Positions 6,343 through 60,477 of a stretch of 64,000 nt of DNA are shown in pieces. How positions within the stretch are numbered: position 1 is the stretch's first letter; each line of letters opens with the position of its first letter. The stretch is from positions 17,772,296-17,836,295 of the forward strand of contig NC_091152.1 in the NCBI RefSeq assembly GCF_040958095.1, read 5' to 3'. The DNA is from Procambarus clarkii. Its lineage: Eukaryota; Arthropoda; Malacostraca; Decapoda; Cambaridae. The notes beneath the pieces are model-generated. The model saw nothing but the letters and a program-made list of their open reading frames with translations. It did not search any database and was not told the DNA's origin. The translations under genes were made by a program, and so were the position numbers.

Positions 6343-7063
6343 AAGAGATATGTAACAGATAGCCTAGTATTAAAAACTGACGTTAGGAGACAAGAGTAAA
6401 AATATTAGAGCTCATGGCTTTGCCGCCAATATGTCACAAACATCTTCCTTTAATCCTCAGTGCAATCATTGATTAAAGAAACAAATAAACGCAAATCAAT
6501 CAAGTCTCCTTTAATCCCTGCGGGTAATGACAAACTCTTCAAACAATTACAGATATATGATACGGCGGGTTTCTAGCATATTCTGTAATTATTTTGAGCA
6601 ATATACAACTGATTTCTCACTATATAATCAACACTAAAGAGTGATTATTTAATGTGACGAAATATTTATGTGCTTATAGTATTCAATATATTAAATTAAT
6701 ATCCAAATCGTCAAACTGTAATTATCGTTTGAACTTTGAAGTGTTTATTTATTTAAATATATTTATAAATGTTTTTATACAGTTTAAGCAGTGACAACCT
6801 GTGGATATACTAACACACAACAGCAGTTCCCAAAGAAATTTTATATTTAAATATTTGCCACCATTTTGCGTCCGGAAACATTTGTATTGAACTGAAAATA
6901 CATAAAAAAAAGGAAATAACAGATCTTAACTACATAAGACACACAATTATATATTTCCCATACTATTAGCGCTAAATTTCAAGTGTATTGCAATAAAAAT
7001 AAATCATCTTACTTAACTTTGAAAATAATTATAAAGAATTTGAGGAGTCAAGAAATTGGCGCC

Positions 7064-7244
7064 TCAGTGACACAACGGCCGCCGTCGCGACCACACCGCG
7101 TCGGGCTCCGTCCCGCCCTCGTCACGCCCACGTCACGCCCTCGTCACGCCCACGCCGCCCACGTCACGCCCACGCCGCCCACGTCACGCCCTCGTCACGC
7201 CCACGCCGCCCACGTCACGCCCACGCCCACGTCGTCACTTCACA
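7064..7244 (+). promoter_or_regulatory. CpG-rich putative promoter/5' UTR of gene A
   Basis: A sharply GC- and CpG-rich block in AT-rich surroundings, ending at the ATG at 7245. It contains short direct repeats of CGTCACGCCCACGCC. CCACGTCA occurs four times (7128, 7159, 7179, 7210). Its reverse complement TGACGTGG is the core bound by ATF6/XBP1/CREB-type bZIP factors (known biology). The repeated CCACGCCC is the reverse complement of GGGCGTGG, a KLF/SP-type box. No TATA box is seen, so a dispersed CpG-type start is inferred. Confidence 0.45.
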
Positions 7245-7346
7245 ATGGGGTTATTTCCCTCCAAAAGCAGGACCGAGGTAGAGATGAAGCAGGAGAACGT
7301 GGAGGAGCTGGGCCAGGCCCGTGTGGGCCAGTTACTCATGGCCTTG
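7245..7346 (+). CDS. Gene A exon 1 (34 codons), donor within minisatellite
   Basis: The start ATG at 7245 follows the CpG-rich block. The exon reads MGLFPSKSRTEVEMKQENVE and continues to LLMAL. It ends at TTG|GTGAGT, a consensus 5' splice site, in phase 0. The terminal CTCATGGCCTTG|GTGAGTAC is the founder unit of the 30-bp array that follows, so later copies offer equivalent donors in the same frame. Skipping to later donors would add ten-residue VSTASLLMAL-like blocks. An in-frame TGA at 8712 ends this possibility. Translation could alternatively start at the ATG that opens exon 2. Confidence 0.5.
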
Positions 7347-10300
7347 GTGAGTACTGCCTCCTTACTCATGGCCTTGGTGAGTACTGCCTCCTTACTCATG
7401 GCCTTGGTGAGTACTGCCTCCTTACTCATGGCCTTGGTGAGTACTGCCTCCTTACTCATGGCCTTGGTGAGTACTGCCTCCTTACTCATGGCCTTGGTGA
7501 GTACTTCCTCCTTACTCATGGCCTTGGTGAGTACTGCCTCCTTACTCATGGCCTTGGTGAGTACTGCCTCCTTACTCATGGCCTTGGTGAGTACTTCCTC
7601 CTTACTCATGGCCTTGGTGAGTACTTCCTCCTTACTCATGGCCTTGGTGAGTACTGCCTCCTTACTCCTGGCCTTGGTGAGCACTGCCTCCTTACTCATG
7701 GCCTTGGTGAGTACTACCTCCTTACTCCTGGCCTTGGTGAGTACTACCTCCTTACTCCTGGCCTTGGTGAGTACTACCTCCTTACTCCTGGCCTTGGTGA
7801 GCACTGCCTCCTTACTCATGGCCTTGGTGAGCACTGCCTCCTTACTCATGGCCTTGGTGAGTACTGCCTCCTTACTCCTGGCCTTGGTGAGTACTGCCTC
7901 CTTACTCATGGCCTTGGTGAGTACTACCTCCTTACTCATGGCCTTGGTGAGTACTACCTCCTTACTCATGGCCTTGGTGAGTACTACCTCCTTACTCATG
8001 GCCTTGGTGAGCACTGCCTCCTTACTCATGGCCTTGGTGAGTACTGCCTCCTTACTCCTGGCCTTGGTGAGTACTGCCTCCTTACTCATGGCCTTGGTGA
8101 GTACTACCTCCTTACTCCTGGCCTTGGTGAGCACTGCCTCCTTACTCATGGCCTTGGTGAGTACTACCTCCTTACTCCTGGCCTTGGTGAGTACTACCTC
8201 CTTACTCCTGGCCTTGGTGAGTACTGCCTCCTTACTCATGGCCTTGGTGAGTACTACCTCCTTACTCCTGGCCTTGGTGAGTACTGCCTCCTTACTCATG
8301 GCCTTGGTGAGTACTTCCTCCTTACTCATGGCCTTGGTGAGTACTGCCTCCTTACTCATGGCCTTGGTGAGTACTGCCTCCTTACTCATGGCCTTGGTGA
8401 GTACTACCTCCTTACTCATGGCCTTGGTGAGTACTTCCTCCTTACTCATGGCCTTGGTGAGTACTGCCTCCTTACTCATGGCCTTGGTGAGTACTTCCTC
8501 CTTACTCATGGCCTTGGTGAGTACTTCCTCCTTACTCATGGCCTTGGTGAGTACTGCCTCCTTACTCATGGCCTTGGTGAGTACTGCCTCCTTACTCATG
8601 GCCTTGGTGAGTACTTCCTCCTTACTCATGGCCTTGGTGAGTACTGCCTCCTTACTCATGGCCTTGGTGAGTACTACCTCCTTACTCATGGCCTTGGTGA
8701 GTACTGCCTCCTGACTCATGGCCTTGGTGAGTACTGCCTCCTTACTCATGGCCTTGGTGAGTACTGCCTCCTTACTCCTGGCCTTGGTGAGTACTTCCTC
8801 CTTACTCGTGGTGTTGGTGAGTACTACCTCCTTATTCATGGTGTTGGCTGAGTACTTCCTCCTTACTCATGGTGTTGGGTGAGTACTACACGCTCTTAAC
8901 GCTTCCTTACTCATAGAGTTTGGTGAGTAACACGCGCCTCCTTACTCGTGGTGTTTGATGAGTAATACACGCCCTTAACGCCTCATCACTTTTGGTGTTT
9001 GGTGAGTAACTGTCAGGGTGCCCCAACTTGTCATTCAAATATAGTACCTATTGCGACTGTGAATGCATTCTACAAAATACGGATTTTCGCACACCAAAAA
9101 TAATAATGAATTCCATATTTTGTATTAATTTTTATAGATGACCCTAATAAAAGGCAATATCCAAATCTAACTCTTAGTATAGGGCCTAGTATAGTACATG
9201 TATGTTCTAATTTTGGCCTAAGATTTTAAGATAAGACAAGGTTTTTATTTAAGATTTATTTAAGATCTTATAGATAAGATAAGATTTTTAAGATAAGACA
9301 AACTTTTATTTGGCGTAGGATTCTTTATTTCGGCCTGTAAACTGTTAGGTGTCGACCTAGTTTCAGTTTTTGTTATGAACTTTTGGAATATATGAAAAGC
9401 TCAAAACGTAGAATGTTTTCAACACTCCGTCCACAGTAGCAATAGGTACTGTCATTTGTGGGGGATGGGATATCCCAACCCATCCTAATGAAGTACCTAT
9501 TGAAACTACTTGGACGAACGTCCAAAATTGGACTGTTGCGGCTAACACTGTTCACGTTTTGTACTACTAATTCTGTAGAGTGTAGAGGGGCATAAACAAA
9601 ACCTTCTAGGCCTAGTATGGCATATATATGTCCAGTATTAGGCCTAGGGTAGGGTATATTAAGCCTAGTGCTGTTTGGACAAGTAAGGTGAGGCTTGACT
9701 GTTCAGTTTCCATTTTTTTTAGTTTACCATTTGGGCTAATTCAGTAATATAAAATGTGAACTTTTAATGGTGCAGTCATTTCATGCATTTGACCAAACAG
9801 TTCATTTAAGTACTATCTTATGAGGATATATGTATGTATGTATGTATGTATGTAGTGTACTGCGACAACCACTCTACTTGCAGGGCCTATGTAGAATTCC
9901 TGTTGGTCCAAACAGATGGACACTGCTCCTTAATTGTCTTCATATCCCAGCTCTTATTCGGCCCTTATATCTCTTTCAAGTCCTATATAAGTCTGGCTTA
10001 GCGCTTTCTCATAATAATTACCCTATCGTAGATTAATAACTAAATAATATAGCTAATATGTCCATCAGAAGTATGTTTTCTTGAAATTATATTAATTGTT
10101 CTTTTTTAACTATAAAATTAATATGAAGTATACAACTACAAGTATCGTACGCATAACCCCACAATACAAAAATAATTAAAGTATGTTGACTAAATATTGA
10201 CCAGTTGTAATAGCCTCTATAAAATCTAGCAAAACATGTTGACTGCTTGATGTTAAGTTAATAATAGCCTTTCGATGCAAAATAGAAATTATTAACTGCA

Positions 10301-13300
10301 TAATGCTGAGTTATAGTAGCCACTTTACAAAACATAAGGAACTGGTTACCTGCTTGACTTTGACAATTTATAATAGTCATCAGTGCAGAAACGAATATGA
10401 TTAAACAGATTGGTCGCTTAGTGTTAAGTTAAAAAAAACATTTGTTGCAATCTGTTTGGAAGACATTATACCTCACCCGGTCCTTGTCCTACGAGTGAGC
10501 AACGGCATCGTTACCTGGGATAACTAAAGGTTATCTTGAGATGATTTCGGGGCTTAATGTCCCCGCGGCCCGGTCCTCGACCAGGCCTACTTTTTGTTAC
10601 ACATCCCCAGGAAGCAGCCCGTAGCAGCTGTCTTAACTCCCAGGTACCTATTTCCCGGAACCTTAGGACTATGAACCCCGAGCGCTGTCCACTCAGCTGT
10701 CAGGCCCCAAACCTGATGCTTCAGGGTTCGGGAAACTTTTTATCAGACATGGCCCGCTGCGGTAGCAGTCCCTTGAACCATTCACTGGTAGGTAGATGTC
10801 TGACTTTTGCACGCCCTAGTTATCGTTAAACTGCTACTTTGTTATTTTTATTTGCATCTCATCTTACCAAGTCGTAAAGTGCCAATTAAGACTACAGGCC
10901 AGCGATGAATCTCCTAAAGAGGTATAATCATCCGTCTGCTCTGTACTTAATAATTACTGCTTCAGTGGAGGCTGTGTTCCATCCTCGAAATATTTGCTTT
11001 CATTTTTCAGGTTATTGAAGATTAATTATTCAGTCATTGCAAAGGATATCCATGAGTTAATAAGGAAGTGAAACAGGATTATATGATAGCCTGTAGTGTT
11101 GATAAATCTGTTATCCCATACAGAGGTCTAAACAAAAATAATGTCACCCTGTTTAAAAATTGTATTCATTTTTTTTTTCAAATTTATTAAAAAAAATTGC
11201 ATTCAAATGATACCAAACTAAGTACGAACACTTGAACAAAATATCCACAAATAGGAAGCACATAGTTGTACGATGTATTAGGATTAGTGTATGCGTGGAA
11301 TTAAAATTATATAAAGACGACTCAAATTTTCAGGTGTGGATTTTGCAGTTGTAATTCTTAATTCCAGTCAATTCAACAGTTGGGGGTAGAAATAGCCTAA
11401 GTTACTAAATCCCTTTGAGATGTATTTTTTTCTTGTCTCAAACATACTTGAACTTGAATTCAACAGTATTAACCGTTTAACTCTGCTATACTTGCTGCTC
11501 TTCAGTGTACTGTATACTAAAACTTCGCATTCAAAAACTATCGATATATTCACAGTCCTCGCCATCAAAGCATTTCAGAATAAAATCTTGTATATATTCC
11601 CAGATCACTACGCTAACCACTTGGACTGGTCGGTACAGCGACGACCTCGCGTTTTGCTGGTTGGCGTACGTATCTCGACGGTCCAAGAGGTTAGACAACA
11701 TTCCTCCACTCCGTCATTATATCCCAGCTCGTATCCTGCCCTCATATCCCTCACTCCGTCATTATATCCCAGCTCGTATCCTGCCCTCATATCCCTACCA
11801 TGTTCTATAGTCATATTGGCTTAGCACTTTCTCCTGATAATTATCTGTCAATGCCGGTCGGCCGAGCGGATAGCACGCTGGACTTGTGATCCTGTGGTCC
11901 TGGGTTCGATCCCAGGCGCCGGCGAGAAACAATGGGCAGAGTTTCTTTCACCCTATGCCCCTGTTACCTAGCAGTAAAATAGGTACCTGGGTGTTAGTCA
12001 GCTGTCACGGGCTGCTTCCTGGGGGTGGAGGCCTGGTCGAGGACCGGGCCGCGGGGACACTAAAAAAAAAGCCCCGAAATCATCTCAAGATAACCTCAAG
12101 AATGGGTTATTATTATTATTAACATCTTTATTGACAAAATTAATTACAATTTTGCCTAATCTGAGGATTTCGATTAAGTCTTATTACAGTGAGGATAATG
12201 CTGGTATTCACTGTCACGCAGGACAGAGGGTCATACATAAGACCAATGGTTATTATATCGTAAAGAGGACATAACACTTGGGTGCCAGTCTTATGTTTTT
12301 CTCTGGACTAGACACATGTACAGCATTGGTTAAATGTTACAATTTGCCACAATGTGACTTCCCTTTAACTTCCTCCTAACATAATTAACTACATCTGCCT
12401 AGTACTGGATTCAGATACCGGTACAGCAGGCTCCATATTCCACTTCATACCGCTTATGAGCTTGATATGCTAAATTTTGCCTTAGATATTTATAGATCGT
12501 TCATTATAGAAATCCCTAAGAAATCTAACATTTTCAGGCTAGATCCAATTCATCTCACGCCCCATAGACTGCCTGGCGAGCACTATGCATGATTTTCTCC
12601 AAAAAGTATAGCTTAAATAAAGTCTACGCACGATACGTTTCCATCTTCTTCTTGAGGTTATCTTGAGATGATTTCGGGGCTTTAGTGTCCCCGCGGCCCG
12701 GTCTTCGACCAGGCCTCCACCCCCAGGAAGCAGCCCGTGACAGCTGACTAACACCCAGGTACCTATTTTACTGCTAGGTAACAGGGCATAGGGTGAAAGA
12801 AACTCTGCCTATTGTTTCTAGCCGACGCCTGGGATCGAACCCAGGACGACAGGATCACAAGTCCAGTGTGCTGTCCGCTCGGCCGACCGGCTCCCTGACT
12901 ATAATACATTGTTTGTTGTTGACACATTGTCTTATTTTCTGCAGATGAAAGACCTCGAGTTATGCCTTGAGTCCAGCAGACAGGATCTCAGAAAATTATC
13001 TGTCAGAGTTGATTTTTTAAAGAAGTATTATGATGTCACCATGAAGGGCATAACTATTACAACAGGTAAATGGTTATTTATTTACTTATAGTTTTCTTTG
13101 TAAGAGGTGTTAGTGGGTTTAAAGGAAAGAGCTACATCTACATCACAGCTACTTAATAGCTATATCAGTAACTTTTATTAATTTATTTATTTATATACCT
13201 ATTTATTTATTTATTTATTTATATACAAGAAGGTACATTGGGTTGAGAGTACAAAACATTGGTGTTATTACAGTCTTGCACAGCCATTAACAGGCACAGC

Positions 13301-16300
13301 GTTTTGGGCAGGCACTTAACCTAACAGATATAAAGTAAGAGTAATTAGAAGGTAGATTGTAGCAGAATTTTTATTTCAACATAAGATACATTAAAAATTG
13401 ATTGAATTAATTATACTGTTGATGCTGCATGCCTTAAGTACTGTAATAATACTGGGGAAGTAGGTAGCACAAGATACAGTGTGAGTTATACTGTTGATGC
13501 TGCATGCCTTAAGTACTGTAATAATACTGGGGAAGTGGGTAGCACAAGATACAGTGTGAGTTATACTGGTGATGCTGCATGCCTTAAGTACTGTAACAAT
13601 ACTGGGGAAGTGGGTAGCACAAGATACAGTGTGAGTTATACTGTTGATGCTGCATGCCTTAAGTACTGTAATAATACTGGGGAAGTGGGTAGCACAAGAT
13701 ACAGTGTGAGTTATACTGGTGATGCTGCATGCCTTAAGTACTGTAATAATACTGGGGAAGTGGGTAGCACAAGATACAGTGTGAGTTATACTGTTGATGC
13801 TGCATGCCTTAAGTACTGTAACAATACTGGGGAAGTGGGTAGCACAAGATACAGTGTGAGTTATACTGGTGATGCTGCATGCCTTAAGTACTGTAACAAT
13901 ACTGGGGAAGTGGGTAGCACAAGATACAGTGTGAGTTATACTGTTGATGCTGCATGCCTTAAGTACTGTAATAATACTGGGGAAGTGGGTAGCACAAGAT
14001 ACAGTGTGAGTTATACTGTTGATGCTGCATGCCTTAAGTACTGTAACAATACTGGGGAAGTGGGTAGCACAAGATACAGTGTGAGTTATACTGTTGATGC
14101 TGCATGCCTTAAGTACTGTAATAATACTGGGGAAGTGGGTAGCACAAGATACAGTGTGAGTTATACTGGTGATGCTGCATGCCTTAAGTACTGTAACAAT
14201 ACTGGGGAAGTGGGTAGCACAAGATACAGTGTGAGTTATACTGTTGATGCTGCATGCCTTAAGTACTGTAATAATACTGGGGAAGTGGGTAGCACAAGAT
14301 ACAGTGTGAGTTATACTGGTGATGCTGCATGCCTTAAGTACTGTAATAATACTGGGGAAGTGGGTAGCACAAGATACAGTGTGAGTTTGAAGAACAAGGT
14401 AGGAAACTATGTGGAGGTAATTAGGCACTTCTTGGTTTTACATTTAAATAAAGTATAGGTTGGACAGTTTTTTAATTCATTATGGAGTGAGTTCCATAAA
14501 CTAAGTCCTTTTATTTGCATGGAGTGTTTGCACAGTTTTAATCTGACTAGGGATATCTAAAAGATATTTATATCTGGTGTGGTTGTTCTTGAGTTCTGGG
14601 AGCCACTTAGTGGCATGTCTTTGCACCTCTTCCAGTTTGTTGATGTGCTTCTTAAGATATGGGCACCATACATCCGCTGCATATTCCAGCTTTGGTCTAA
14701 TAAAAGTCGTGAACAATTTCTTTAGTATTTCTCCATCCATGTACTTAAAAGCAATTCTGAAGTTAGAAAGTGTAGCACAGGCTCCTTGCACAATATTCTG
14801 AATGTGGTCCTCAGGTGACAGTTTTCTATCTAGAACCATCCCTAGATCCCTTTCTTTGTCAGAATTATTTAAAGATTTCTCACATAATATATAGGTTGTG
14901 TGGGGTCTTATGTTCTCCAATTCCACATTCCATAACATGGCATTTATTCACATTAAATTCCATATGCCAAGTGTTGTTCCATCTACTTATTTTGTCCAGG
15001 TCTTCTTAAAGGGCATGACAATCATCTAGGTTTCTTATCTTCCCTATTATCTTACCATCATCAGCAAACATGTTCATATAATTCTGTATTCCAACTGGTA
15101 GATCGTTTATGTAGACAATGCACATTACCGGTGCAAGAACTGAACCCTGAGGTACTCCACTTGTGACATTCCTCCAATCCGATACACTGCCTCTGATTAC
15201 GGCCCTCAATTTTCTGTCAGTTAGGAAATTTTTTATCCATCATTTTAGAAGCTTACCTGTCATCCCTCCAATAAGTTCCAGTTTCCAGAACAACCTCTTA
15301 TGTGGAACTCTGTCAAAAGCCTTTTTAAGTCCAGATAGATGCAGTCAACCCAACCATTTCTTTCCTGTAAAATCTCTGTGGTTCGATCATAGAAACAGAG
15401 TAAATTCGTTACACAGGATCTTCCAGAACGAAAACCATACTATCTGATATTATATCGTTTTTCGCCAGGTGTTCTACCAATTTAGTTTTAATTATGTTTC
15501 CAACATTTTGACTATTACACTTGTCAATGATACAGGTCTATAACTGAGGGGTCTTCCCTGCTGCCACTGTTGTAGATTGGAACTGTTAGCCTTTTTCCAC
15601 ACATCTGCTACGACTCCTGTACACAGGGATGCCTGAAAAATCAGTTGAAGTTGAATGCTGAGCTCAGGTGCACATTCTCTCAGAACCCATGGTGAAACTC
15701 CATCTGGACCAACTGCCTTGTTCTTACTTAGCTCCTTGAGCATTTTTTCCACTTTGTCTCTAGACACCTCTATGTGTTCTATGTATTCTATGTTGTTCTC
15801 TGGAATTCTTATTGTGTCTTGTTCTCTGAAGATTTCATTTTGTACAAACACACTGGAACTTTTCGTTTAATGTTTCACACATTTCCTTTTCATTTTCCGT
15901 GAATCTGTTTCCCATTTTCAACCTCTGAATATTATCCTTTACCTGCAATTTGTTGTTTATGAATTTATAGAATAGACCTGGTTCTGTTTTACATTTGTCT
16001 GCAATCCCTTTATCAAAATTTCTTTTTGCCTCTCTACTCACTGACGTGTAGTTGTTTCTCGCATCTTTGTATCGCTGGTATGTCTGGGGGTTTGGCCTCT
16101 TCCTGTATTGATTCCATTTTTGTGTCTTTTGGTCTCTGGCCCTCTCGCAATTTCTGTCGAACTAATCCTGTTCCATAGTTCTGCATCTCTGCTTTGGTAT
16201 AAATTTTTTGTGCCTTTATCATATATTTCACAAAACTTGACATACATCTCATTTACTTCATGTCCTAACAGCAAGTCTTTCCAAGACGTGTGTGTGTAGT

Positions 16301-19300
16301 GTGTAGGTTGGGTATTTGTGGTGTAGTGTGTGGGGGTTGGGGTTTGAGTAAATAAAGGTAGTATCGTCAGTAAAAAAAGTATAGGTTTAACAATATTAGA
16401 GACATTAGGCAAGTCATTGATGTATATAAGAAATAGAGATTCTAAGATCCAGCCCTGTGGCACCCCTACGGTTAATGGTAGTGGGAGGAGGTTATCTCAT
16501 TGGTGGCTATATATTGGTGTCGGTCACTAAGATAAGATCGAATATAATTCAGAGCAAGGCCTCAGATTCCATGGTGGTGAGGTTTAAGAGGTTGTTATGG
16601 TAACTGATTACCGTTTACTATGCAACGATTAATGTTATAAAGTAATCATCTTCATAAATGTTGAAAATGTTTTTGAACATTTTGGAAAATCACCAGCATT
16701 ATATGTTGTCATCACCTATATTTATACATTCACGTGAGGCAGGCAGAAAATTCTCTCATGTGTGTATTTAGGCTTTGAAATTGTTTTTCAGTGAAAAAGT
16801 GGTGTGATGGCTTGTTAATTAACTCTTTATGTTAATTTTTACTATTTATCATTTAATATTTAATAATTTACTATTTTGAACACTTAAACAGGTCACTTGG
16901 AATTTCTGAAAAGAAAATTGGATAAGGAAGGAGACGAGGATTTCAAGGAATGGTATGATTTCTTCGAGAGTGAAAAGAAACACTACAAGGAGGGTGAACA
17001 TACTGAACACACCAAGGAGGGTGATGATACTGAACACATCGAGGTGGGTGAAGATACTGAACACATCGAGGTGGGTGAAGATACTGAACACATCGAGGTG
17101 GGTGAAGATACTGAACACATCGAGGTGGGTGAAGATACTGAACACATCGAGGTGGGTGAAGATACTGAACACATCGAAGTGGGTGAAGATACTGAACACA
17201 TCGAAGTGGGTGAAGATACTGAACACATCGAAGTGGGTGAAGATACTGAACACATCGAACTGGGTGAAGATACTGAACACATCGAAGTGGGTGAAGATAC
17301 TGAACACATCGAACTGGGTGAAGATACTGAACACATCGAAGTGGGTGAAGATACTGAACACATCGAAGTGGGTGAAGATACTGAACACATCGAAGTGGGT
17401 GAAGATACTGAACACATCGAAGTGGGTGAAGATACTGAACACATCGAAGTGGGTGAAGATACTGAACACACCAAGGTGGATGATGATACCGAACACTCCA
17501 TGAATGATGACTCCGAACACACTGAGAGTGATGATACTGAACATACCTCAAGTGATGATTCTTATGATTCTGAATACGCCAAGAACGGTGATGATACTGA
17601 GCACACCAAGAATGATGGTACTGAACACAATACGAGTGATGATACTGAACACACCACGAGTGACGAACATGAACACACCACGAGTGATGATACTGAACAC
17701 ACCACGAGTGATGATTCTGTACTCACGAATACTACTGAGCACTCCACAAGTGATGATACTGAAAACACCACGAGTGATGCTACTGAAAACACCATTAGTG
17801 ATGATACCGAATGCACCATGAGTGGTGATTCTGACTACAGTACGAGTGATGATACTGAATACACCAAGCTTGTTGATACTAAACACACCGAGGTGGGTGA
17901 TGATATTGAACACACCAAGGTGGGTAGTGATACTGAATACACCATGAAGGGTGATGATACAGAACACACCATGAAGGGTGATGATACAGATCACACCAAG
18001 ATGGGTGATGATATTGAACACACCAAGGTGGGTGATGATATTGAACACACCAAAATGGTCAATGAGACGGAACACATCAAGGTGGGCGATGATACTGAAC
18101 AGACCAAGAAGGGTGATGATACAGAACACAAGATGAGTGATGATATTCAACACACCAAGGTTGGTGGTGATAGTGAACACGCCAAGAATGATGATACGGA
18201 GCATAGGAAGAATGAATACACTATACACATAATCAGTGATGATACTGAACATACGACGAGTGATGAGTCTGAACACATTAACGAGAGTGATGAGTCTGAA
18301 CACCCCAAGTGTGATTATATTAAACACGCCACAAGTGATGCTAAATACACTAAGATTGATGATACTGAACATAACAAGAGTGATGATACTAAACACACCA
18401 AGAAGAATGACGATTGTGAACATACCAATAGTAAGGATTATGAACACACCATGAGTGATTATACTGACCACACTGCAAGTAATGATGAACTCTCCACGAG
18501 TGATGGTGATGATGAACTCTCCATGAGTGATGAAAGTGATCACACTAGGAGTGAAGTTGACCACGCCTTGAGTAACGATGCTGAGAGCTCCTCAGACACG
18601 TAAGTCCCAAGTACTAGTATCCTGATGAGGTCATTTTCTCTCATTATAGTGTATATGTATATGGAAAAGATCTTTTGTATTTGTAACTGATATTCTACTG
18701 CTACCGATGATTTACACATGGGTAAATACCTTGTTGTATCAGTAGATTCACTCTGTCTCACCCAGACAGGAGTAGTGGTGTTGGCGTGTTAGCAGGGATT
18801 TTCAAGTTTTGCGTTCCAGTCCTCGCTAATGCGTCAGTAGTTTCAGGGAAAAAAAATTCAGTTTTAGTTCCCGCTTGCAAAATTATTTCAGAGTCTAGTT
18901 TTAGGGAAATATTTCAGAGTTCATTTTCAAAGAGTAGTTTATTACGAGTTTGTTAAAGAAATCTTATTAGGAAAATTCAGGGCAAACGTCACTGCTGTAC
19001 GTGTACTGTACTTGCTGAAATCTTTTGGGGGAAAATTCGATGCTCTGTCACACTGTTGCAAGCAGATTTTTTCAGAGTTCATTTTCGGAGAATAGTTTAT
19101 TAGGAGTTTGTTAAAGAAATCTTATTAGGGGTCAAAGTTGTCTCTGGGTTCTTAAAGAGTTCTTATGGGGGAAATTCAAATATCTTCAGAGTCTATTTTA
19201 AGACAGAATTTTTTCAGAGCCCAGTTTAAGACCGATTTTTTTCAAGTCCAGTTTTGTTAAAAAAAAGAATGTCAAAGCCTATTTTCAGAAAATAGGATTA

Positions 19301-22300: not shown

Positions 22301-25300
22301 CAGGATACGAACCCATGACATAACGCTCGCGGAACGCCAGGCGAGTGTCTTACCACTACACCACGGAGACTGCTGTTGACTGACTGTCATGTATATTAGT
22401 AAGGCAAACGTTTACCAAAGACATATCTTGTAATGAAACTTGTTTATACAATAACTTTTAGTTACATTATATTAGACCTCTGACAAAACTTTCCATCAAC
22501 TTAATACGAAGGCGCATATAACTTACCAAACTTAACTTACGTAACATATCTTACTTGAAGCATCGTCTTATTCTCTCTGGTATATCAAGTCTTCATTTAA
22601 TTTCCCAGACAACACTCTGTTACACTTACAGATATACACACCAGAACTTACATATCACATTCTCAAACATATACAAATGATTACAATAACACTCACAAAC
22701 TTATAAATAAATTCACAAACTTATACAACATAAGAAAATACTCAAACAAACTTGCACATGCACACATTTTCTCTGTTCAGCCCCCTCCCCGCTCAGCTCG
22801 TTGTCGCCGTCTGGGGGCTTAGTGGGCGGCTGCCGGAGTGTGATGCTCCTTGGGACAGTCCTCTGTCCTTTTCTAGCCTTGTGCTCCTGCTGCCGTCCTC
22901 TCCAATTCTGCTGGGCATCTTTTCCTTTTCCTTCTGTTTCGTTTTTCTCCCCCCTCTTCTCCTATCTGCTTGCCGTTTCCTGCCGACCTTTTGCTCGTTC
23001 TGGTTCTTCCCTTGGACTTCTTCTACTTTGATGCCCGGGTGCTTGAGGAGGCATACTCTTGCACCCGTAGAACTGCAGTACCCGACGTCGAGAGCGAGGG
23101 GAACCTTTTATTGTCAATCCCCACTTCGTCACTGAACCCGATCTCGACGGACTGTCGGTTTCTTAAGGTGGCGTTTGTGGGGCGTATACTCACGACGCAC
23201 CCCTAGGAGGCCCCGACAAGATCGGCGATAGCTTCTTGTTGGGTGTCCTGCCTCTAATTGTGGCTCCATGGTGGGTGTGGGGGCACATTCGTGAGTGAAT
23301 TCGTCATTTCGTCAAGATGATAACCCCTGTTTCGGCTGCTTCTGGCTTACCTTTTCAGGCTCGTGGGGTGGGCGACCAAGCCCCCGAGTCGGTCCGTATT
23401 GGAAGACCGGGCTCTGTAGCCTCCGCTGCATTGGGCCCCGACCTTGCTCCTCCTTTGGCCTCTCTGACTCCTTCCCCTGGCTCCCCTCCCTCCTCTGTGG
23501 TTGGGTCGAGCCCCAAGCCCCCAGTGGTGACTACCTCGTCCCCTGGCGCGGCTCCTTCTCTAGTTGTAACTACTGCGCCTTTTAACCCCTCTCTCTCTGG
23601 GGGTTCTCACCGCAGTTCTCGTCACGGCCGCCCTCGCTCGATTCCTTCCAGTTCTGCTACCTATCAAGCCTTGTTTGGTCCCGCTTCGTGGGCCAAATAT
23701 TTTGATCTCCTCCCTCTTGATTCTGCGCCTCCTGACGATTTCTCCCTTCATCGACATCTCATTGATTCCGTGGATGCCTCCATTACTTTTAACCCCACTC
23801 GTCTCGGTACGCGTGTCGTTGCTGCTCCTTCTCAGGATGCTGCTTCCCGCTTGGCTGCCTTATCCTGCCTTGGCGAGACCCCCGTTCGGGTCTCGAAGAA
23901 CGTTCAGTTGAATGCCAGTGTTGGCACTATTTTGCTCCCGCCCCATGTTGCGACCGGTGTTCGGGACCTACGCGACTGCCACGACGATATTCAACATATC
24001 CTCGCTGCCCAGGGCCATTCTATTCTCCAGGTGGACACGTTTACTCGTCCCCCTCGTGGTAGTCGCCGTCAACCCCTCCGGGTTGTGAAGATTACCTTTG
24101 ATGGTAGGACCCTTCCACCCTCGGTCATTCTTGCTGGTGCCAGGTGCTCTGTCCAGGAGTACATTCCTTCTCCTCGGCTCTGCAACAAGTGCTGGAGGTT
24201 TGGGCATGGTGCCCTCCGCTGCTCCGGGACTGTCTCTCTCTGTCCTTTGTGTGGTGGCGAAGGTCACTCTAAGTCGGAGTGCGCTTCTCCCCAGGCTCGT
24301 TGCCTCAACTGCGGTGAGGCCCATCCTACCTTCTCCCGTGCGTGTGTCCATTACAAGCTTGAGGCAGCCGTCCTCAACTTGAAGCACCGGGAGCGTTTAT
24401 CTTTTCCTGAGGCGAGGCGCCAGGTTCGCCGGCTCCCGCCTTATGCTAATATCTCTTATGCTCGCGTGTTGCGCTCTTCCTCTCCTCGTCCTTCCCGCCT
24501 TCCTCAGACTCACAACCGTTTCCAGGCCTTGGACCCTGATGCGCCCACTGCCCCCTCCTCTGTCCCTTTGGGTTCTCTCCCGAAGGATCCTCCTCCTGGT
24601 CCTCTGTCTGGGGTTCCCCTTCCTTCTACCCGGTCTGTCGTGTCTTCTGTGTCTCCTTCCTCGTCCCCCTCCGATCCTCCTTCCCATCCTCTTCCTCCAT
24701 CTATCGGCTCTCCCCGCCGCCTGTCGGTGCGGGCGGATGTCCATCGCTCTCCTAACGGCCGTCGTGTGTGCTCTCGTTCGGCTTCTCCTGTTGAGACACT
24801 GGAATCCGTTGCCCGGTACGTAGTTGCTGGGACACCGGTCTCTTTAAGTCAGAAGCGTAAGCCTGGCTCCTCTCCTTCCTCTTCCCCGGCGGGTAAGAAG
24901 GCTTCGCTTTCTTCCTCAGCTCCTCCTTCTGGCTCTGTTGCTCCTTCCACTCCCGTTTCAGTGCTTGCGCCCCCTGTTCCCGCTATGGAGGTTTCTTTGG
25001 CCCCTGCTTCCCTTTCGGTTGCTGCTCTTGCTGGGGTGCGCTCCTCTCTTTCTACTCCCCCTCTTCCTGCTGCTGTCCTTGGCTGCTCCTCTCCGTTGTC
25101 TCCTCCTCCTCCTCCTCCTCCTCCTCCTCCTCCTCCTCCGGACCCTGCCCGCCCACCTCTGATCTGTTCTCCCGTTTCCTTCCCTCCGTCTTTGCTCAGT
25201 TTACCCATGCCCCCTAATCCTGACTTTGCTGACCCTGATCCCGACCCTGATATTCTTTAACGTGCTCTGTTGGTCTTTCGCCTTTGTTTCTTCCTTGTTC

Positions 25301-28300
25301 TCTGTTTTTGTCCTTTCTCTTCTCGTCGTTGTCCATTCTTCAATGGAACGTTCGAGGTTATTACGCCAATTTCCTCGAACTCCAACTTCTGGTTTCGCGG
25401 TTTTCGCCCCTTTGTGTCTGTCTCCAGGAGCCGATGCTTGGTGCTCGTCCTGGTCGTTTTCGTGGCTATTCCTTTCTCTCCCCCCCCCTTAGCCATTGCT
25501 GGGGCTTCTAATTCTTCTGCTCTCTTGATTCGGGCTGATGTTCCCTTTGTTCCTTTACTTTTTCCTTCGCCTCTCCATTGTTCTGCTGCTCGTATCTTTG
25601 TGGGGAAATGGTACACAGTTTGTTCCATTTATCTCCCCCCGAGTGTCCCGCTCTCTCTTCCTGATTTGAAACACCTCCTAGACTCCTTGCCGGAGCCTGT
25701 GCTCCTGCTGGGTGACTTCAATTGTCGTCATTCTCTTTGGGGTGACGTTCTGACGAATACCCGGGGTCGCCTCCTTGAGCCGTTTCTCCTCTCTTCTTCC
25801 CTGTCTCTTCTGAATTCTGGTGAGCCCACTCATTTGGACTCTCGAACTCGTACCCTTTCTTGTCTTGATCTTTCTCTCTGCTCTTCTTCTCTTTACTTAG
25901 ATTTCACATGGCAGGTTCTTGATGACCTCCATGGAAGTGATCATTTCCCCATCCTTGTTTCCTTTTTCTCTTTTCGCCCTTCCCTCTCTTTCCCTAGGTG
26001 GCAGTTTGCTAAGGCGGACTGGACCCTATTTTCCCTCAGTGCTACTCTCTCTGACCTCTCCCTTCTGCCCCTCTCTCGCGCTCTCCTCCTTTTTCATGAC
26101 ACTGTCTTCGACGCTGCCCTCCGCTCTATTCCTCGCTCTTCCTCTCGGGGTCCACGGAAGTGCGTTCCCTGGTGGAATGCGGACTGTGCTCGGGCTGTCC
26201 GCTGTAAGCGTGCAGCCTGGAAGAAGCACCGCCGTAGGCAGACGACCGATTCTTTTCTTTTCTTTCGGAAAGCGAGTGCGGTGGCCCGTAGGGCCATCCG
26301 TACGGCTAAACGTGAATGTTGGGCATCTTATGTCTCGACAATTACGTCCGAAACCCCTCTGGCCCAGATCTGGAAGCGTATCCGCAAGATAGCGGGTAAG
26401 TTCGTTCCCGATGTTTCACCGGTCCTTCACCTCCATGATACTCTTGTGGCGGACCCGTTGCAGGTCGCTTCCGAACTGGGTTCCCACTTTTCTTCTGTTA
26501 GCTCTGGTCTTCATCTTCCCCAATCTTTCCTTCTTCGTAAACCTGTCCTTGAGTCTCGTCCTTTAGATTTCTGCACTCATCTTCAGCTTCCCTATAATGA
26601 TCCCTTCTCTCTCTCTGAACTTCGTTCTGCCCTGGCCCTCTGCGGTTCTACGGCGGCGGGCTCCGATGGTATTCATTATGAGATGCTTCGCCATCTCCCT
26701 CCGAGCACGTCTCAGTATTTACTGAGTCTGTATAATCGGATCTGGGAGTCGTCGTCAGTCCCTGAGGACTGGCTCGATGCCGTTGTCCTCCCTGTTCGCA
26801 AACCGGGGTCTCTGGGTACTTCCCCTAAGGACTTTCGCCCTATTGCTCTCACAAGTTGTGTCTGCAAACTCTTTGAACGTATGGTTAACGTTCGTCTGAT
26901 GTGGTTCCTGGAACACCATCACCTCCTCTCCCCTTCTCAATTTGGTTTCCGCAAGTGCCGCAGCACGACAGATGTCCTGGTGAACTTGGAGGTCTATATA
27001 CGTACTGCTTTTGCTGCGAAGACCTCCGTTGTTGCCGTCCTTTTTGACCTAGAAAAGGCTTACGACACCACTTGGCGTTATCATATCCTATCTCAACTTC
27101 ATTCTTTTGGCCTTCGTGGTCATCTCCCTCTCTTTCTCCGCAGCTTCCTCTCTCGTCGTTCCTTTCGGGTGCGCCTTGGTACCGCTCTCTCTCCCTCTTT
27201 TCAGCAATACGAAGGTGTGCCCCAGGGTAGTGTTCTGAGCACTACTCTTTTTCTGGTTGCCCTCAATGGTCTTCTTTCCTCTCTTCCTTCTGGTGTCTTC
27301 TCCGCTCTCTATGTCGATGATCTTACCCTTTGTTGTCAGGGTGATGATTCGCCTCTCCTTCAACGCCGGCTTCAACTTGCGATTGATGCCGTGTCGTCTT
27401 GGGCCACAGGTCATGGCTTCAAGTTCTCTACTTCTAAGACTTGTGCCATGACTTTTACGCGGAAACGGGTTGTTCTTCGTCCCTCTTTGTCACTTTATGG
27501 TCATCCCCTTGAATACAAAGATTCCGCGAAGCTTTTGGGGTTATTCCTTGACACTCGTTTGTCTTGGTCTTCCCATATCTCTTACCTCCGTGTTGAGTGC
27601 TCTAAGTCCCTTACCCTCCTTCGGGTCTTGTCCCATACTTCTTGGGGGGCAGATAGGCGCACTCTCCTTGCTTTACATTCCTCTCTCGTCCTGTCTAAGC
27701 TCGATTATGGTTGCCCTGCTTACTCGTCTGCTTCTCCTTCTACTCTTCGCCGTCTTGATGCTTTGCACCATACTGGGTTGCGCCTCAGTTCTGGTGCCTT
27801 TCGTTCGACTCCCGTCCTTAGCTTGTATGTTGACACTGGCTTCCTGTCTCTCCAGGACCGCCGTGATCGCTACTGTCTTCGCTATCTTGCGCGGTCCTTG
27901 CAACATCCTTCCTCTCGTCTCTGTCGTGCTTTAACTTTTACCCCTCCTGCGGTTCCTGTTCCTCTTCACCACCTCCCTCTTTCTGTCCGGTTATCTCGCC
28001 TGCAGGATTCTCTTTCCGTTCGTATTTCTGATGTTTCTCCTCGTGTTGTTCCTTCTTTGCCCCCGTGGAGGGTCCCTCTTCCGCGGTTTTGTACATCCTT
28101 GACTCGTATCACTAAAGCTTTTACCCCTCCTACAGTTCTAAAACGCCTTTTCCTCGAGCACTTTTCTTCTCACTCCCGCTCCGTTTCTGTCTTCACCGAT
28201 GGGTCTAAGTCAGCGGACGGTGTTGGCTACTCTGTTGTTTTTCCTGATCGCACTTATATGTGTCGCTTGCCTCCGGAGACTAGCATCTTTACAGCGGAAC

Positions 28301-31300
28301 TTTATGCTATTCTCTATGCTCTTCGTCTCCTGCTTTCTCGTTGTCAGTCTTCCTTTGTGGTTGTTGTTGACTCTCGTAGTGCCCTCATGGCTCTCGGGTG
28401 CTTTAATCCAGTTCATCCGGTAGTTGTCGAGATCCAGCATTGGCTGTTTCTCGTTCACAGTAAATTTAAGTCGGTTGAGTTTTGTTGGGTTCCCAGCCAT
28501 ATTGGCGTGTCTTTAAATGAGCGTGCGGATGCTGCCGCTAAGGAAGCTGTCCGCTCTTGTCCCATCTCTCGTAAAGGCATTCCGTATTCCGACTTTTACC
28601 CGGTTATCCATTCCTCAGTCCTTACCCGTTGGCAGGCTTCTTGGTTGTCTGTTACTGGTAACAAGCTACGTACTCTTAAATGTTGTGTTTCCTCGTGGCC
28701 GTCCTCCTTCCACCGTAACCGGCGGTGGGAAACAGCTCTAGCGAGGTTGCGTATTGGCCATACTCGCTTAACCCATGGTCACTTGATGGAGCGCCGCCCT
28801 GCTCCTTATTGTCCTAGTTGCATTGTCCCTCTTACGGTCGTGCATGTCCTTCTTGAATGTCCTGACTTCCAGGACGAGCGTGTGTCTTGCTTTCCGACCG
28901 CCCCTCGCGGTCACCTGTCCCTCGATAGAATTCTTGGTGACTCGGATACTTTTGATATCGTTCGCCTTATGCGTTTTTGTTCTCGTATTGGCATCCTTGG
29001 TGATATTTAGCGCCCTCTGATTATTTTGCGTATTTGATGGTGCTACATAGCCTTCCTGGTTTGGTGCCTTCTTTTGATAATTACTTACTTACTTCTCTGT
29101 TCAGTAACTTACTCAAGTTCTCAAACTTGTACAAAAATGCATAAGCTTGCACACATAAAACAAACACACACACTTTTACAAAACTTATGCAAATACTTAG
29201 TTCACTCATTTACGGGTTTATGCATTTTAGGGGTTATTTCTCAAATGGGTTCTATGAATGTAAGGGCTATTTATTAAAGATAGGGTATTTATGCATTTCA
29301 AAGGAATTGTTATATATTTGTATTTGTTCAGTTCAAGGAATATTTATTAAAGATGGGGTGTTTAAGAATTTCAGGGGTTAATTGTTTTAAGGGGGTTGTT
29401 AATGCTTGTCAAGGGGTATTTATTAAAGATGGAGTACTGAAGCATTTCACAGGAAGTAATATATAAGTGTTCTGTTTATTTCAAGGCTTAAATGTTCAAA
29501 TGGGAATTTATGCATTTCAAGTGATATTTGTTAGATGTGTTAAAGCGCTTTGTACAATTTTTACTTCAAGTTCATCAAGGGACTCCTAAGTTATATTTAT
29601 TATGTAAATAATTTATTATGCATATTTATTATATAAATAGACGACTTTGACCCCTAATAATATTTCTTTAACAAACTCCTAACAAACTATTCTCCGAAAA
29701 TGAACTCTGAAAAAAATCAGCTCGCAACAGTGTGACAACGCCGAGTTTCCCCCAATAAGATTTCCTTAAGAGCACAGTGATGACATTTTTCCTAAATTTT
29801 CCTAATACGGTTTCTTTAACAAACTCCTAATAAACTATTCTCTGAAAATGGACTCTGAAATATTTCCCTAAAACTAGACTGAAATAATTTTGCCCGAAAC
29901 ATTGTGACAGGAAAGTGGGAACTAAAACTGAAAACATTTTCCCTGAAACCTCTGGTGCGTTAGCGAGAACTGGGACCCAAAACTTGAAATTCCCTGCTAA
30001 TGGTCAGGTCTCCAAAATTGTGCATTTTTAAGCCGGTGTCGGCATTCATCCTCTTGCTTAATAGTGCAACAGGAGGACAAGGACCCTAAAGAATGCCACG
30101 AAGGCATTTAATACATCTTTGAAGCCAAAGATATTCTATTCTAGTTTAAATTTTCACTCGACCCCCGAGCGGTCAACGTCATAATCCCCTTAGTGTTGTT
30201 AATATCACTTAATAGTGGAGGCCTCCTATCTTCAGTAATTCTTTCTGGTGCTAGATGCACTGTACATTCTCCTTGCCTCTACAATAAGTGGTGGAAATAT
30301 GGGCATAGAATCTGCAGGTGTACAGTAGTAGTGATGTCTTTTTATCCTTTCTGTGGCGAACCTGGCCATTCTGTTAGATTGTTCTTTGGCCCATACTCAT
30401 GTAACGGCTAAGGAAATCTCTGTATTATCCTTCTACATTATTCTCCTCATGCCATCTTTCTTTTCCTTTCTTCCCTCTCTCTCTCTCTCTCTCTCCTTTT
30501 CTCCTCTCTCCTTCCCAAGTCTATCTTCTCTCCCAGACGTTTATGGTTTATGACAGGACGAGAATAATCTCTCGTTTACGGTTGATGAATTTTCCCGCAA
30601 GGACAGTTTCCTAGAGGCACTAGGCCGATGTAAAAAAACCCACACCCTCTGGTCCTTCAAGATAGGCCTAATTCTGTTGAGTGGCTTTTTGAAGGCCCAA
30701 AGGTGTGGCTTCAGAGCCTGAGGGGGTGAAGTTCCATAGCATCCTGGGCATATCTGTAGTTAACTCCTCAGTGTGAGCTTGACCGGGTGGGGTCATGGGT
30801 GTTGGTCAGCTCAGTGGGAAATAGAAAGCAAGGCAGGATAAGTTTGCAGAGTTTCTTCCCTCCCTTCCCAGAGTTTCTTTTTACCTTCCAGAAGGTAGAT
30901 GCCCTGTTAGTTTACATATTCTTGTAGAACACTACACCTTGCCTCTTAGATATATAATATTTTAGAGTAGGATATAATTGATTTTCCATTAATAAAGTAG
31001 TGTTAAGTTGTAAAAACAATTTCAATTGTAAAAAACTATTTTGTTTTTAATAAAAACGATAAAAAACTAGTTAATTGCATATTAAAACTATTTAATATGC
31101 AATTAACTCATAATTAATTGCTGTAATTTTCATGAGTAAGGTTTCATGTACAGTTTCATATATTTCTTTCATGTATATATGTAAAAATATACATGGATCA
31201 TGTATATTTAATTTTGAGTAAGGAAAAAAAGTTAAATTTTGTTAGGTAAACAAACCCCTGTTTTAAATACCTACTCCTTTCACAGATTACTATTCAGTAA

Positions 31301-34300
31301 TTCACTCAGCCTTATTTACACTATGGAGAGAGATTGGGAGAAGGGAGGAGGGGAGGGGGGTCGAATTTAATCCATTATAAATTCCAAATCTTCAGAAAAG
31401 ACGATTTTCTCTCGACTTTTTTTTTTCGCATCTTCAGAACCGTAAAAGGGAAACAGTCTTAGCCTGCATGCGTAATGGCCACAGTGGGTTGACTCTTTAA
31501 GTACTTTACAGCTTCAGAAATTCTAGATAAGGCCCAAAGTTTTACTCTTAGCAAAATCGCTTAAAATCCTATATAACTTGTACTATCAAAAGTAGTCTGA
31601 TGATAATTGATATGTTTTAATATTTGTCATCATTCTGGATCTTTCTAGTGCAGGCATTCAGTGAATTGATGCTATTATTCTTTTCTAAGAGAAGTTCAGA
31701 AACAGATTGGCCAGTGTTATAAGATGGGAACTTGAACGGTGAGTAGCGAAGGGGGTCCGGTAGGGTTGTATAAGCCTGGAGCCAGATTCACGAAGCAGTT
31801 ACGCAAGCACTTACAAACCTGTACATGTTTTCTCAATCTTTGACGGCTTTGTTTACCATTATTAAACAGTTAATGATCTCCGAAGCACCAGGAGGCTGTT
31901 TATAACAATAACAACAGTTGATTGGTAAGTTTTCATGCTTGTAAACTGTCTAATAAATGTAACCAAAGCCGTCAAAGATTGAGGAAAGATGTGTACACGT
32001 TCGTAAGTACTTGCGTAACTACTTCGTGAATCTGGCCCCTGGTGTTTGGGCAGAGGCCTATATCTAGCGCTTTACTTTCGGCACAGGTATAACACATGAG
32101 AACAGTGGCACCTTTGAATTGATGTGAGCGATGTAGAGTATTCCACGTTTGTGTAAATAACGTATAATATCCATGTTTTTCAGGGTTGGATTGGAGTTTC
32201 AGTACTTACAAAATATGATGACTTACATGAAAATTGGACTGAAGCTGTCGCTGAAGCTTCATGATGAAATACAAGAGTTGTTGAAGCAGCATCTCATGTC
32301 AAAAGAAGCAGTAGACTTACTAGAGAAGTCTCTGGGACATATACGCAAGGCCTACGAGAAGCTCTCAAAGAAAGACTTCAGCGTACCTAATGTCCAACAC
32401 AGCGTTCATGGCGCTTTATGTGATTTCTTACAATCAGGAGTGTTCGATCCTGAATTGAAGTACTTTGGCCGCTTCGTTAATATAATTGAAGATCTGTATA
32501 ACATTGAGGAGGGTGCGATCAACAGTGACCAGAGACCATCACCAACATTCTACAAGACATATTTAAATCACCGTTATAACAGTGACGTTACTTCTGGGGA
32601 CAATTGCACGCTATTGAACGTAGAAGTTGAAGAAAATTCATCCTTTGTAAGTATGCAATTGTCTTGTACACTAACAATGGTGTATATTATCACCATATTG
32701 GTATAGGTCGCTGGCCAGTGCTATCCTGGGACATGATGATAATATGCAGTATAAAGTTGATGTTGTGAGTAAGATATGATATCACCATATTGGTATAGGT
32801 TGCTGGCCAGTGCTATCCTGGGACATGATGATAATATGCAGTATAAAGTTGATGTTGTGAGTAAGATATGATATCACCATATTGGTATAGGTTGCTGGCC
32901 AGTGCTATCCTGGGACATGATAATAACATGCAGTATAAAGTTGATGTTGTGAGTAAGATATGATATCACCATATTGGTATAGGTCGCTGGCCAGTACTAT
33001 CCTGGGACATGATAATAACATGCAGTATAAAGTTGATGTTGTGAGTAAGATATGATATCACCATATTGGTATAGGTCGCTGGCCAGTGCTATCCTGGGAC
33101 ATGATAATAACATGCAGTATAAAGTTGATGTTGTGAGTAAAATATGAGGGCGCACATTTGTAATGGTGCGCGCCAGTATTTGATCATCTGCGTGAATATT
33201 ACTCGTTTCACCAGCAATAGTAACTGCGTATGACTATACAGATGTGCTAACTGAAATATCCCATTTGGCTAATTCATATCATAATGGTCGTAGGAGACAT
33301 TACCGCCGATGTGTCTCAACAAAATGCATACCTAATTATGGATGCAGAAAATTTCAATAATGCTGGTTTCAATGATGAATTCCATATTAACTAACTTTCT
33401 GTCATGGGATGGGTGAGGAAGGTGTCACTTTGATCACTCTTATTGATGATGGAGCTGGTCACATCTGTGGGTATAAGACCATTGATGGTGACAACCTGTC
33501 CGGACATCTTCCTATCATAACATAAGAATGAAGGTAACTGCAGAAGGCCTGTTGGCACATACGAGGCAGTTCCTATGAGCTACCGTTAGAGTGTAGTGTA
33601 CAGTGAGTTCAGTTGAGTACAGTGTACAGTATCATGTCCACCTTCAGTAAACCTAACTCACAAGTTGCTGCTCCCGGTGAGAACAAACTCCACCATGATG
33701 ACTGACACCCCCTCTCCCTCAGATCTGGAAGAAAATCTGTAAGATTGTGGTTAAATTTGTTCCCGACATCTCGCGCGTCCTTCACCTCCATGGTTCTGTT
33801 GTGGCAGATCCGGTGTTGGTCGCCAACGAACCAGGTTCTCACTTTCCAACAGCTCCCATTATGAAGATCTATCTCTTCTCCCTCTCAGAAATCCTGTCTG
33901 CCCTGACCCTCTGCAGTTCTACAGTGGCAGGCTAAGACGGCATTCGTTATGACATTCTCCGTCATCTCCCTCATTGCACTTTTCAGTAGTCACTGAATAT
34001 CTATAACCGTATTTGGGAGACGTCGTCAGTCCACGAGGACTGACTTGAGGCTGTTGTTCTTCCTGTTTGGAAACCCGGTACTCAAAGGACCTCCTCCCTG
34101 AAGATTTTCGCCCCATTGATTTGACGAGTTGCACTTGCAAACGTTTCGAACATATAGTCATTGACCATCTGGTGGGTTGTTCTTAGAACGCTATCACCGC
34201 CTCTTCTCTTCTCAATTTGGTTTTCGCGAGTGTCGCAGCACGACTGGTGTTTTAGTGACTTAGATGTCTAAATTCGTACTACCTTTGCTGCAAAGACCTC

Positions 34301-45219: not shown

Positions 45220-46535
45220 GCCCCGGGTGCTGGTATTATACTGTACTTTAAGACCCGCTGCTGATACCATACAGTACTACAAGACCCGCTGCTGGTACTA
45301 CACTACTACAATACCCGCTGCTGATACCATACAGTACTACAAGACCCGGTGTTGATACTACACTGTACTACAAGACCCGGTGTTGGTACTACACTGTACT
45401 ACAAGACCCGGTGCTGGTACTACACTGTACTACAAGACCCGGTGCTGGTGCTACACTGTACTACAAGACCCGGTGCTGGTACCACACTGTACTACAAGAC
45501 CCGCTGCTGGTACTACACTGTACTACAAGACCCGGTGTTGGTACTACACTGTACTACAAGACCCGGTGCTGGTACTACACTGTACTACAAGACCCGGTGC
45601 TGGTACCACACTGTACTACAAGACCCGCTGCTGGTACTACACTGTACTACATGACCCGGTGCTGGTACTACACTGTACTACAAGACCCGGTGCTGGTACT
45701 ACACTGTACTACAAGACCCGGTGTTGGTACTACACTGTACTACAAGACCCGGTGTTGGTACCACACTGTACTACAAGACCCGCTGTTGGTACTACACTGT
45801 ACTACAAGACCCGGTGCTGGTACTACACTGTACTACAAGACCCGGTGTTGGTACCACACTGTACTACAAGACCCGGTGTTGGTACTACACTGTACTACAA
45901 GACCCGGTGCTGGTGCTACACTGTACTACAAGACCCGGTGCTGGTACTACACTGTACTACAAGACCCGGTGTTGGTACCACACTGTACTACAAGACCCGG
46001 TGTTGGTACTACACTGTACTACAAGACCCGCTGTTGGTACTACACTGTACTACAAGACCCGGTGTTGGTACTACACTGTACTACAAGACCCGGTGTTGGT
46101 ACCACACTGTACTACAAGACCCGGTGTTGGTACTACACTGTACTACAAGACCCGGTGCTGGTACTACACTGTACTACAAGACCCGGTGCTGGTACTACAC
46201 TGTACTACAAGACCCGGTGTTGGTACTACACTGTACTACAAGACTCGGTGTTGGTACTACACTGTACTACAAGACCCGCTGTTGGTACTACACTGTACTA
46301 CAAGACCCGCTGCTGGTACTACACTGTACTACAAGACCCGCTGTTGGTACTACACTGTACTACAAGACCCGGTGCGTGTACTACAAGACCTGGTGTTGGT
46401 ACCACACTGTACTACAAGACCCGGTGTTGGTACTACACTGTACTACAAGACCCGGTGCGTGTACTACAAGACCTGGTGTTGGTACCACACTGTACTACAA
46501 GACCCGGTGTTGGTACTACACTGTACTACAAGACT
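45220..46535. repeat. 31-bp minisatellite, ~42 copies, in putative 3' UTR
   Basis: Unit ACCCGGTGTTGGTACTACAC then TGTACTACAAG, with GCTGCTGG/GTGCTGG/GTACCAC variants. It starts about 75 bp after the gene A stop codons and ends about 200 bp before the poly(A) signal, so it would lie in the 3' UTR. A 31-bp period makes the frame rotate with each copy. Three plus-strand frames are therefore open for hundreds of codons without implying a protein. Confidence 0.93.
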
Positions 46536-59512: not shown

Positions 59513-60073
<561 letters not shown>

Positions 60074-60477
60074 TATATATATTACATACACACACACACA
60101 CTATTCTCACCAAAAGCATAACATCTGTACTTCTCCATTAACGCACATCTCTGCTGTGTATGTTCTTCCTTGTATATTCAAGGGAAAGTTTTCAAACTAA
60201 GAAACTAAATGTGGATGGATATAGATTCCGTTAATGTAATTTCCACACAACACATTTGGAAAACAGATGAGTAGTCAGAGAGAGAGAGAGAGAGACTGCA
60301 CTGTTAGAACAATACCAGAGAACCTAATGAATCTCATATCTTTAAATAAAACAATGATATTGTATATCAAGATGTAAAAGGAATTGTGAGAATGTCAACA
60401 GCTAATACAGCCTTTAAAGATTCTTGTACATGACAGCATTAACGCTTTGAAGATCGTATTTTCTGGGGTAGCCCCCT

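Follow-up and report, generated by a model that had tools for sequence, protein, structure and literature searches.

We identified a 30-bp minisatellite that repeats the predicted 5' splice site of exon 1 about 50 times in a putative gene of Procambarus clarkii, here termed gene A. The array probably represents a mirage-type minisatellite that duplicated the predicted boundary between exon 1 and intron 1, with one or a few donors on the exon side being used and the rest of the array being intronic. Mirages are tandem repeats whose unit contains an exon-intron boundary and a splice signal; the unit of the gene A array contains both, the boundary being predicted. All positions below refer to the window, the whole 64,000-nucleotide stretch of DNA that we analyzed, unless another contig is named.

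Anatomy of the donor array

TRF reported 51.8 copies of a 30-bp unit at 7332-8887, with 95% matches and 0% indels. With its decayed part included, the minisatellite extends from 7332 to 9010. Based on TRF and the donor layout, the regular part of the array on the + strand (7332-8831) consists of 50 units in register, TTACTCATGGCCTTG|GTGAGTACTGCCTCC, which hold a 30-bp step from the first unit start at 7332 to the last at 8802. Half of the unit is the end of the exon and the other half is the start of the intron. From 8832 onward the register is lost through indels, and the decayed copies at 8832-9010 (+ strand) retain three intact donors, at 8879, 8923, and 9002.

We then counted donors as GTGAGT, GTGAGC, or GTAAGT between 7245 and 9060 and found 53 (48 GTGAGT, 5 GTGAGC, and 0 GTAAGT). 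Fifty of the 53 are in phase 0 relative to the ATG at 7245, and 46 of these 50 lie upstream of an in-frame TGA in the 47th array copy (8712-8714, + strand). The original prediction had described an in-frame 30-bp donor amplified about 50-fold, with about 46 phase-0 donors ahead of the TGA and with exon 1 ending in the phase that the acceptor at 12945 takes, phase 0; the counts and phases agree with it on each point. Donors 3' of the TGA cannot give a full protein from the ATG at 7245.

The array opens with five identical consensus units, and its last copies are decayed. In this one assembly, near-identical 5' units together with decayed 3' units are compatible with turnover, and this suggests that the exon side of the array was recently homogenized or turned over. 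Only 4 of the 30 columns vary among the first 49 in-register units (columns 2, 7, 21, and 25), and a single one of them, donor position +6, falls within the donor 9-mer. The antisense strand through the array carries an open frame of 543 aa (7235-8866), which is a by-product of the repeat.

We also analyzed the folding of the array RNA. The unit holds TACTCA and TGAGTA, separated by 9-nt loops either way, and hairpins are possible. The four-unit folding energy was matched by shuffles as low at frequencies of 0.10 (mononucleotide), 0.20 (dinucleotide), and 0.15 (donor-fixed), and the accessibility of the array donor was the same as in shuffled units (0.45). A hairpin that hides the donor was rejected, since the folding energy is ordinary and the donor is as accessible as in the shuffles.

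Predicted exons of gene A

Four predicted exons on the + strand (102, 121, 1708, and 463 nt) join in phase into 798 codons with no stop. The coding part of exon 1 (7245-7346, 34 codons) begins with MGLFPSKSR..., which we take to resemble a myristoylation motif, and is predicted to end in phase 0 at the first donor copy. Its ATG has a good start context and lies within a GC/CpG-rich 5' region on the + strand (7060-7346; 69% GC; CpG o/e 1.15 versus 0.65 for the window), inside which CGTCACGCCCA repeats occur at 7109-7227. A possible core promoter lies at 7030-7068 (+ strand), where TATAAA at 7030 and TCAGT at 7064 are presumably core-promoter motifs; the A of TCAGT lies about 36 nt from where the TATA begins, a slightly long distance. 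Outside the array, the first 12.9 kb of the window held three ATG frames of at least 20 codons that reach a phase-0 donor-like site, one of which has a good start context.

Exon 2 (12945-13065, 121 nt, phase 0 to 1) follows the acceptor CTGCAG|ATG at 12945. Exon 3 (16892-18599, 1708 nt, phase 1 to 2) encodes acidic D/E/H/T repeats, and exon 4 (32184-32646, 463 nt, phase 2 to 0) is predicted to be spliced at the donor TTT|GTAAGT. Exon 3 was also observed to be largely a coding minisatellite with 27/24-bp units (16992-18554). If exon 4 of gene A is read through, a stop follows a hydrophobic tail with a best 19-residue mean of 1.86. Neither ATTAAA nor AATAAA was seen in the 2.9 kb past this exon.

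Database searches with the gene A exons gave nothing above the cut-off in Pfam (best CdrL_M, E 0.17) and no convincing match in PDB (best E 0.34 and 0.15), and one scan of viral contigs with exon 4 gave no relative. Up to E=1, no match to the Ifi-6-16 family of Pfam was obtained with the joined exons 1 and 2 or with the frames of exons 3 and 4. No exon 5 was recognized in a comparison of + strand frames of at least 25 codons past exon 4 with the sequence that follows exon 4 of the paralogue described below (E <= 0.5, with minus-strand matches of the paralogue dropped and 195 matches left); the best 45 of the 195 look like shared interspersed repeats.

A diverged paralogue with its own donor array

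When the genome was searched with exon 4, one diverged relative came up on contig C46, with an E-value of 3.2e-6 and 26% identity. A third place from the same search, on contig C48, had an E-value of 4.74 and contains a stop, and was taken as a chance match. Exon 2 (E 0.28) and the start of exon 3 (E 5.9) gave weak matches upstream of the C46 exon (exon 4'), in the right order, although in the 100 kb around the paralogue they stood among similarly weak matches elsewhere. Read from the sequence, exon 2' has 121 nt, like exon 2, and phases 0 to 1. Exon 3' has 394 nt (1708 nt in gene A), phases 1 to 2, and acidic repeats, and exon 4' has phases 2 to 0, matching exon 4 of gene A. The weak E-values alone would be insufficient, but length, phase, order, and repeat type in combination make the paralogy convincing. 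On this reading of the sequence, the C46 locus is a diverged paralogue that repeats exons 2 to 4 with identical phases. The shared phases uphold the earlier call of gene A from exon 2 on, and from that exon onward they support gene A as a real gene.

Genome searches with exons 1 to 3 returned three matches, all three being the gene A locus itself. Neither the genome nor the 100 kb around the paralogue yielded an exon 1', in searches that 34 residues at about 30% identity would escape. The best candidate among those shown for the paralogue's exon 1 (E 7.6e-4) was rejected, being a match of a repeat frame to a non-coding frame of the array. Exon 2' begins in phase 0 with no ATG at its start, and therefore a phase-0 exon is expected upstream of it. 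The prediction of exon 1 in gene A draws on its own sequence, namely its start context, the CpG block, and its phase-0 end.

The end of exon 4' carries an 18-bp array of its own, TTAATCTTCGTAAGTTAY. Of its ten donor positions, seven are intact (GTAAGT) and three read CTAAGT. The array lies at L003:1935-2106 (G000:C46, about 17755040-17755211), and its units encode YLIFVS. All ten donor positions are in phase 0 despite a spacing that changes from 18 to 15 to 12. Exon 4' may be spliced at this array or may be terminal; read through, it reaches a stop after a hydrophobic tail with a best 19-residue mean of 2.39. Past the paralogue, we found ATTAAA at 60878 and AATAAA at 60946 and 62205, in the coordinates of the fetched stretch. 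Contig C46 also holds a 33-bp array at L006:9191-9614 (G000:C46, about 17713797-17714220). Its unit holds ATGGGTAACAGCTTC, so that MGNSFS is repeated many times, and we take this peptide to be a myristoylation-like start.

Origin of the array and comparison with chance

We searched the 4.03-Gb assembly for the 30-bp unit with at most 2 mismatches and found 49 matches at the array locus and 0 elsewhere; the reversed unit, used as a control under the same limit, gave 0 matches. As a repeat, the array far exceeds chance. Because the unit is confined to one locus within 2 mismatches, the array is a locally born minisatellite, and an origin from a dispersed satellite or a transposon was ruled out.

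A tandem array bearing GTGAGT is not beyond chance in the present genome, because spaced GTGAGT triplets numbered 560,550 genome-wide versus 537,007 for the reversed motif (ratio 1.04), in a count of matches, not of arrays, in which long arrays weigh most. Spaced GTAAGT triplets, counted in the same way, numbered 115,500 versus 74,997 in the control (1.54-fold), and TTAGG/GTTAGG-like arrays were prominent among the GTAAGT matches listed. A drive that favors donors in minisatellites was unsupported given the GTGAGT ratio, although the GTAAGT excess speaks against rejecting it. A donor as strong as that of the array was rare in mononucleotide-shuffled 30-bp units (0.0045), a frequency to be read knowing that the array was picked for its donor.

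Around gene A, arrays with at least 3 copies and a period of at least 9 account for 10.0% of 104 kb; around the paralogue they account for 33.8% of 100 kb. Two of the seven predicted donors of gene A and the paralogue, pooled, lie inside arrays. The period was divisible by 3 in 25 of 63 non-overlapping arrays of at least 4 copies in the two regions, a set that includes both donor arrays and the coding arrays of exon 3. Donor-bearing arrays are thus roughly the expected output of a minisatellite-rich genome. Given the triplet ratio of 1.04 and an array coverage of 10-34% of the two regions, chance together with local duplication suffices to account for the array.

Relation to known systems

The original prediction also knew of no described gene with such an arrangement. 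This does not hold, and precedents are human IFI6 and the mirages of lancelets. The human gene 6-16/IFI6 has a minisatellite that, in the words of a title, "provides multiple splice donor sites" (Turri, Cuin and Porter 1995), and two downstream repeat units are reported to serve as extra donors (PMC4526556). The array of gene A has the same anatomy, with a minisatellite in a predicted transcript and successive units that, in IFI6, are alternative splice donors. The genes are unrelated, gene A having no match to the Ifi-6-16 family, and donor usage is reported from transcripts in IFI6, whereas the gene A array is known from genomic sequence. The IFI6 minisatellite has a 12-bp unit in about 26 copies, compared with a 30-bp unit in gene A.

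In the lancelet (amphioxus), mirages are described as tandem repeats across exon-intron boundaries of the Adh3 and globin genes (PMC3087553) and also in PGBD5 and troponin C (PMC3902484). They are reported to evolve in concert, with cluster ends less homogenized, and to show length and somatic instability; many of them carry splice signals, and the units in Adh3 measure 10-72 bp (PMC3087553). They are reported to leave regular splicing undisturbed (PMC3087553, PMC3902484). The gene A array likewise spans an exon-intron boundary, here a predicted one, and its decayed end is less homogenized. It differs in the animal group and the genes involved and in its roughly 50 in-frame donors, as opposed to 6 and 3 units in two haplotypes of BflGb6. 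Work by Canestro et al. 2002 is cited in the lancelet mirage literature.

The arrangement is therefore already known in kind, and the gene A case has a large copy number, with 46 donors sharing a single open frame. In arthropods, our literature search, which missed most subscription papers, found no case of a donor-spanning minisatellite. Crayfish genomes are reported to be minisatellite-rich (PMC13130569); the main text of that study does not use the word intron, and splice-site arrays are not its subject. The present case extends donor-spanning minisatellites to another gene family, in a decapod, and the dense minisatellites of a decapod genome may make such arrays common. Roughly 50 near-identical donors in one pre-mRNA would form a natural test series for position effects of 5' splice sites, which could be read from long cDNA with the sequence context unchanged.

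Possible use of the donors

The amplified piece takes 15 nt from the end of the predicted exon 1 and 15 nt from the start of intron 1, and slippage or unequal exchange may have amplified it. Most transcripts would probably have one of the first donors on the exon side joined to 12945 and lose the remaining copies as intron. Since lancelet mirages are reported to spare splicing and IFI6 to use two extra units, use of one or a few donors on the exon side is expected. The 46 donors before 8712 are in frame, so that a later donor, if used occasionally, would keep the protein open and add VSTASLLMAL blocks to it. The array may persist because it would do little harm: use of the first copy leaves the mRNA unchanged, and use of a later copy stays in frame. 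Among equally strong donors, U1 occupancy can favor the copy on the intron side. With such a preference, many extra blocks or read-through into the TGA would be expected, and this counts against the reading that we prefer.

It is possible, though rather unlikely, that many of the donors are used and that between 0 and about 45 VSTASLLMAL blocks are added to the protein, with one or more blocks giving a membrane-spanning stretch behind the myristoylation-like N terminus. All 46 donors ahead of the TGA are in phase. A single extra block lifts the best 19-residue Kyte-Doolittle mean from 0.80, the value for none, to 1.90, and two to four blocks bring it to 2.02, which predicts that use of a later donor would put a transmembrane-like stretch after the N-terminal MGLFPS. 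The donor array of the paralogue is likewise in frame and hydrophobic (YLIFVS), and in IFI6 two repeat units past the first donor are reported to be used (PMC4526556). However, the lancelet arrays are reported to occur with no aberrant mRNAs (PMC3087553, PMC3902484), and the in-frame state of both donor arrays was noticed post hoc and is not rare (25 of 63 arrays). Spacings in the open frames are all multiples of 3 (30 in the gene A array; 18, 15, and 12 in the paralogue), which is a weak, post hoc sign that later copies end up in the protein instead of simply being removed. The two donor arrays sit at different sites, in exon 1 of gene A and in exon 4 of the paralogue. It is very unlikely, in our judgment, that in the family of gene A and its paralogue the donor arrays arose twice independently and in-frame donor choice sets the number of hydrophobic blocks as a heritable, tunable membrane-anchor switch.

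We regard it as decidedly improbable that the array is an ordinary intronic or intergenic minisatellite, with exon 1 spurious and transcription starting elsewhere. The dense arrays of both regions fit this explanation, as does the failure to find a paralogous exon 1, either genome-wide or in the 100 kb surrounding the paralogue, in searches that a 34-mer at about 30% identity would escape; the phase-0 start of exon 2' with no ATG, which calls for an upstream phase-0 exon, and the good context of the ATG at 7245 within a CpG-rich block argue against it. A function as a sink for U1 snRNP, which would shield the long first intron from premature polyadenylation or modulate splicing, appears highly improbable. 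About 50 good U1 matches are concentrated in one place, and the predicted U1 duplex is -10.6 kcal/mol for the consensus copy and -8.1 kcal/mol for the GTGAGC form, compared with -8.8, -6.0, and -7.3 kcal/mol for the donors of exons 2, 3, and 4. GTGAGT is also carried by the units of a 75-bp minisatellite in intron 2 (13411-14387, 13 copies, + strand) and a 92-bp minisatellite just past the exon 4 donor (32688-33147, 5 copies, + strand), but shuffled units reach best donor scores just as good (0.28 and 0.36, respectively). The array donor 9-mer is predicted to be almost never unpaired (<=0.0007 versus 0.0025 to 0.016 for the donors of exons 2-4). Since genome-wide GTGAGT triplets are just 1.04 times the reversed control, nothing points to arrays being kept as U1 sinks.

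Other repeats and elements in the window

Among the 15 window arrays examined, three carry GTRAGT on the + strand and one on the - strand. A 31-bp minisatellite at 45226-46534 has about 43 copies and 3% indels, and its unit lacks GTRAGT. Intron 3 contains two long ORFs that resemble a non-LTR retrotransposon (23299-29010). The first of them gave matches below the cut-off only, one of which was a zinc knuckle, and the second, at 25261-29010, gave matches to endonuclease, reverse transcriptase, and RNase H families. A nearly perfect TA repeat of about 565 bp occupies 59518-60082.
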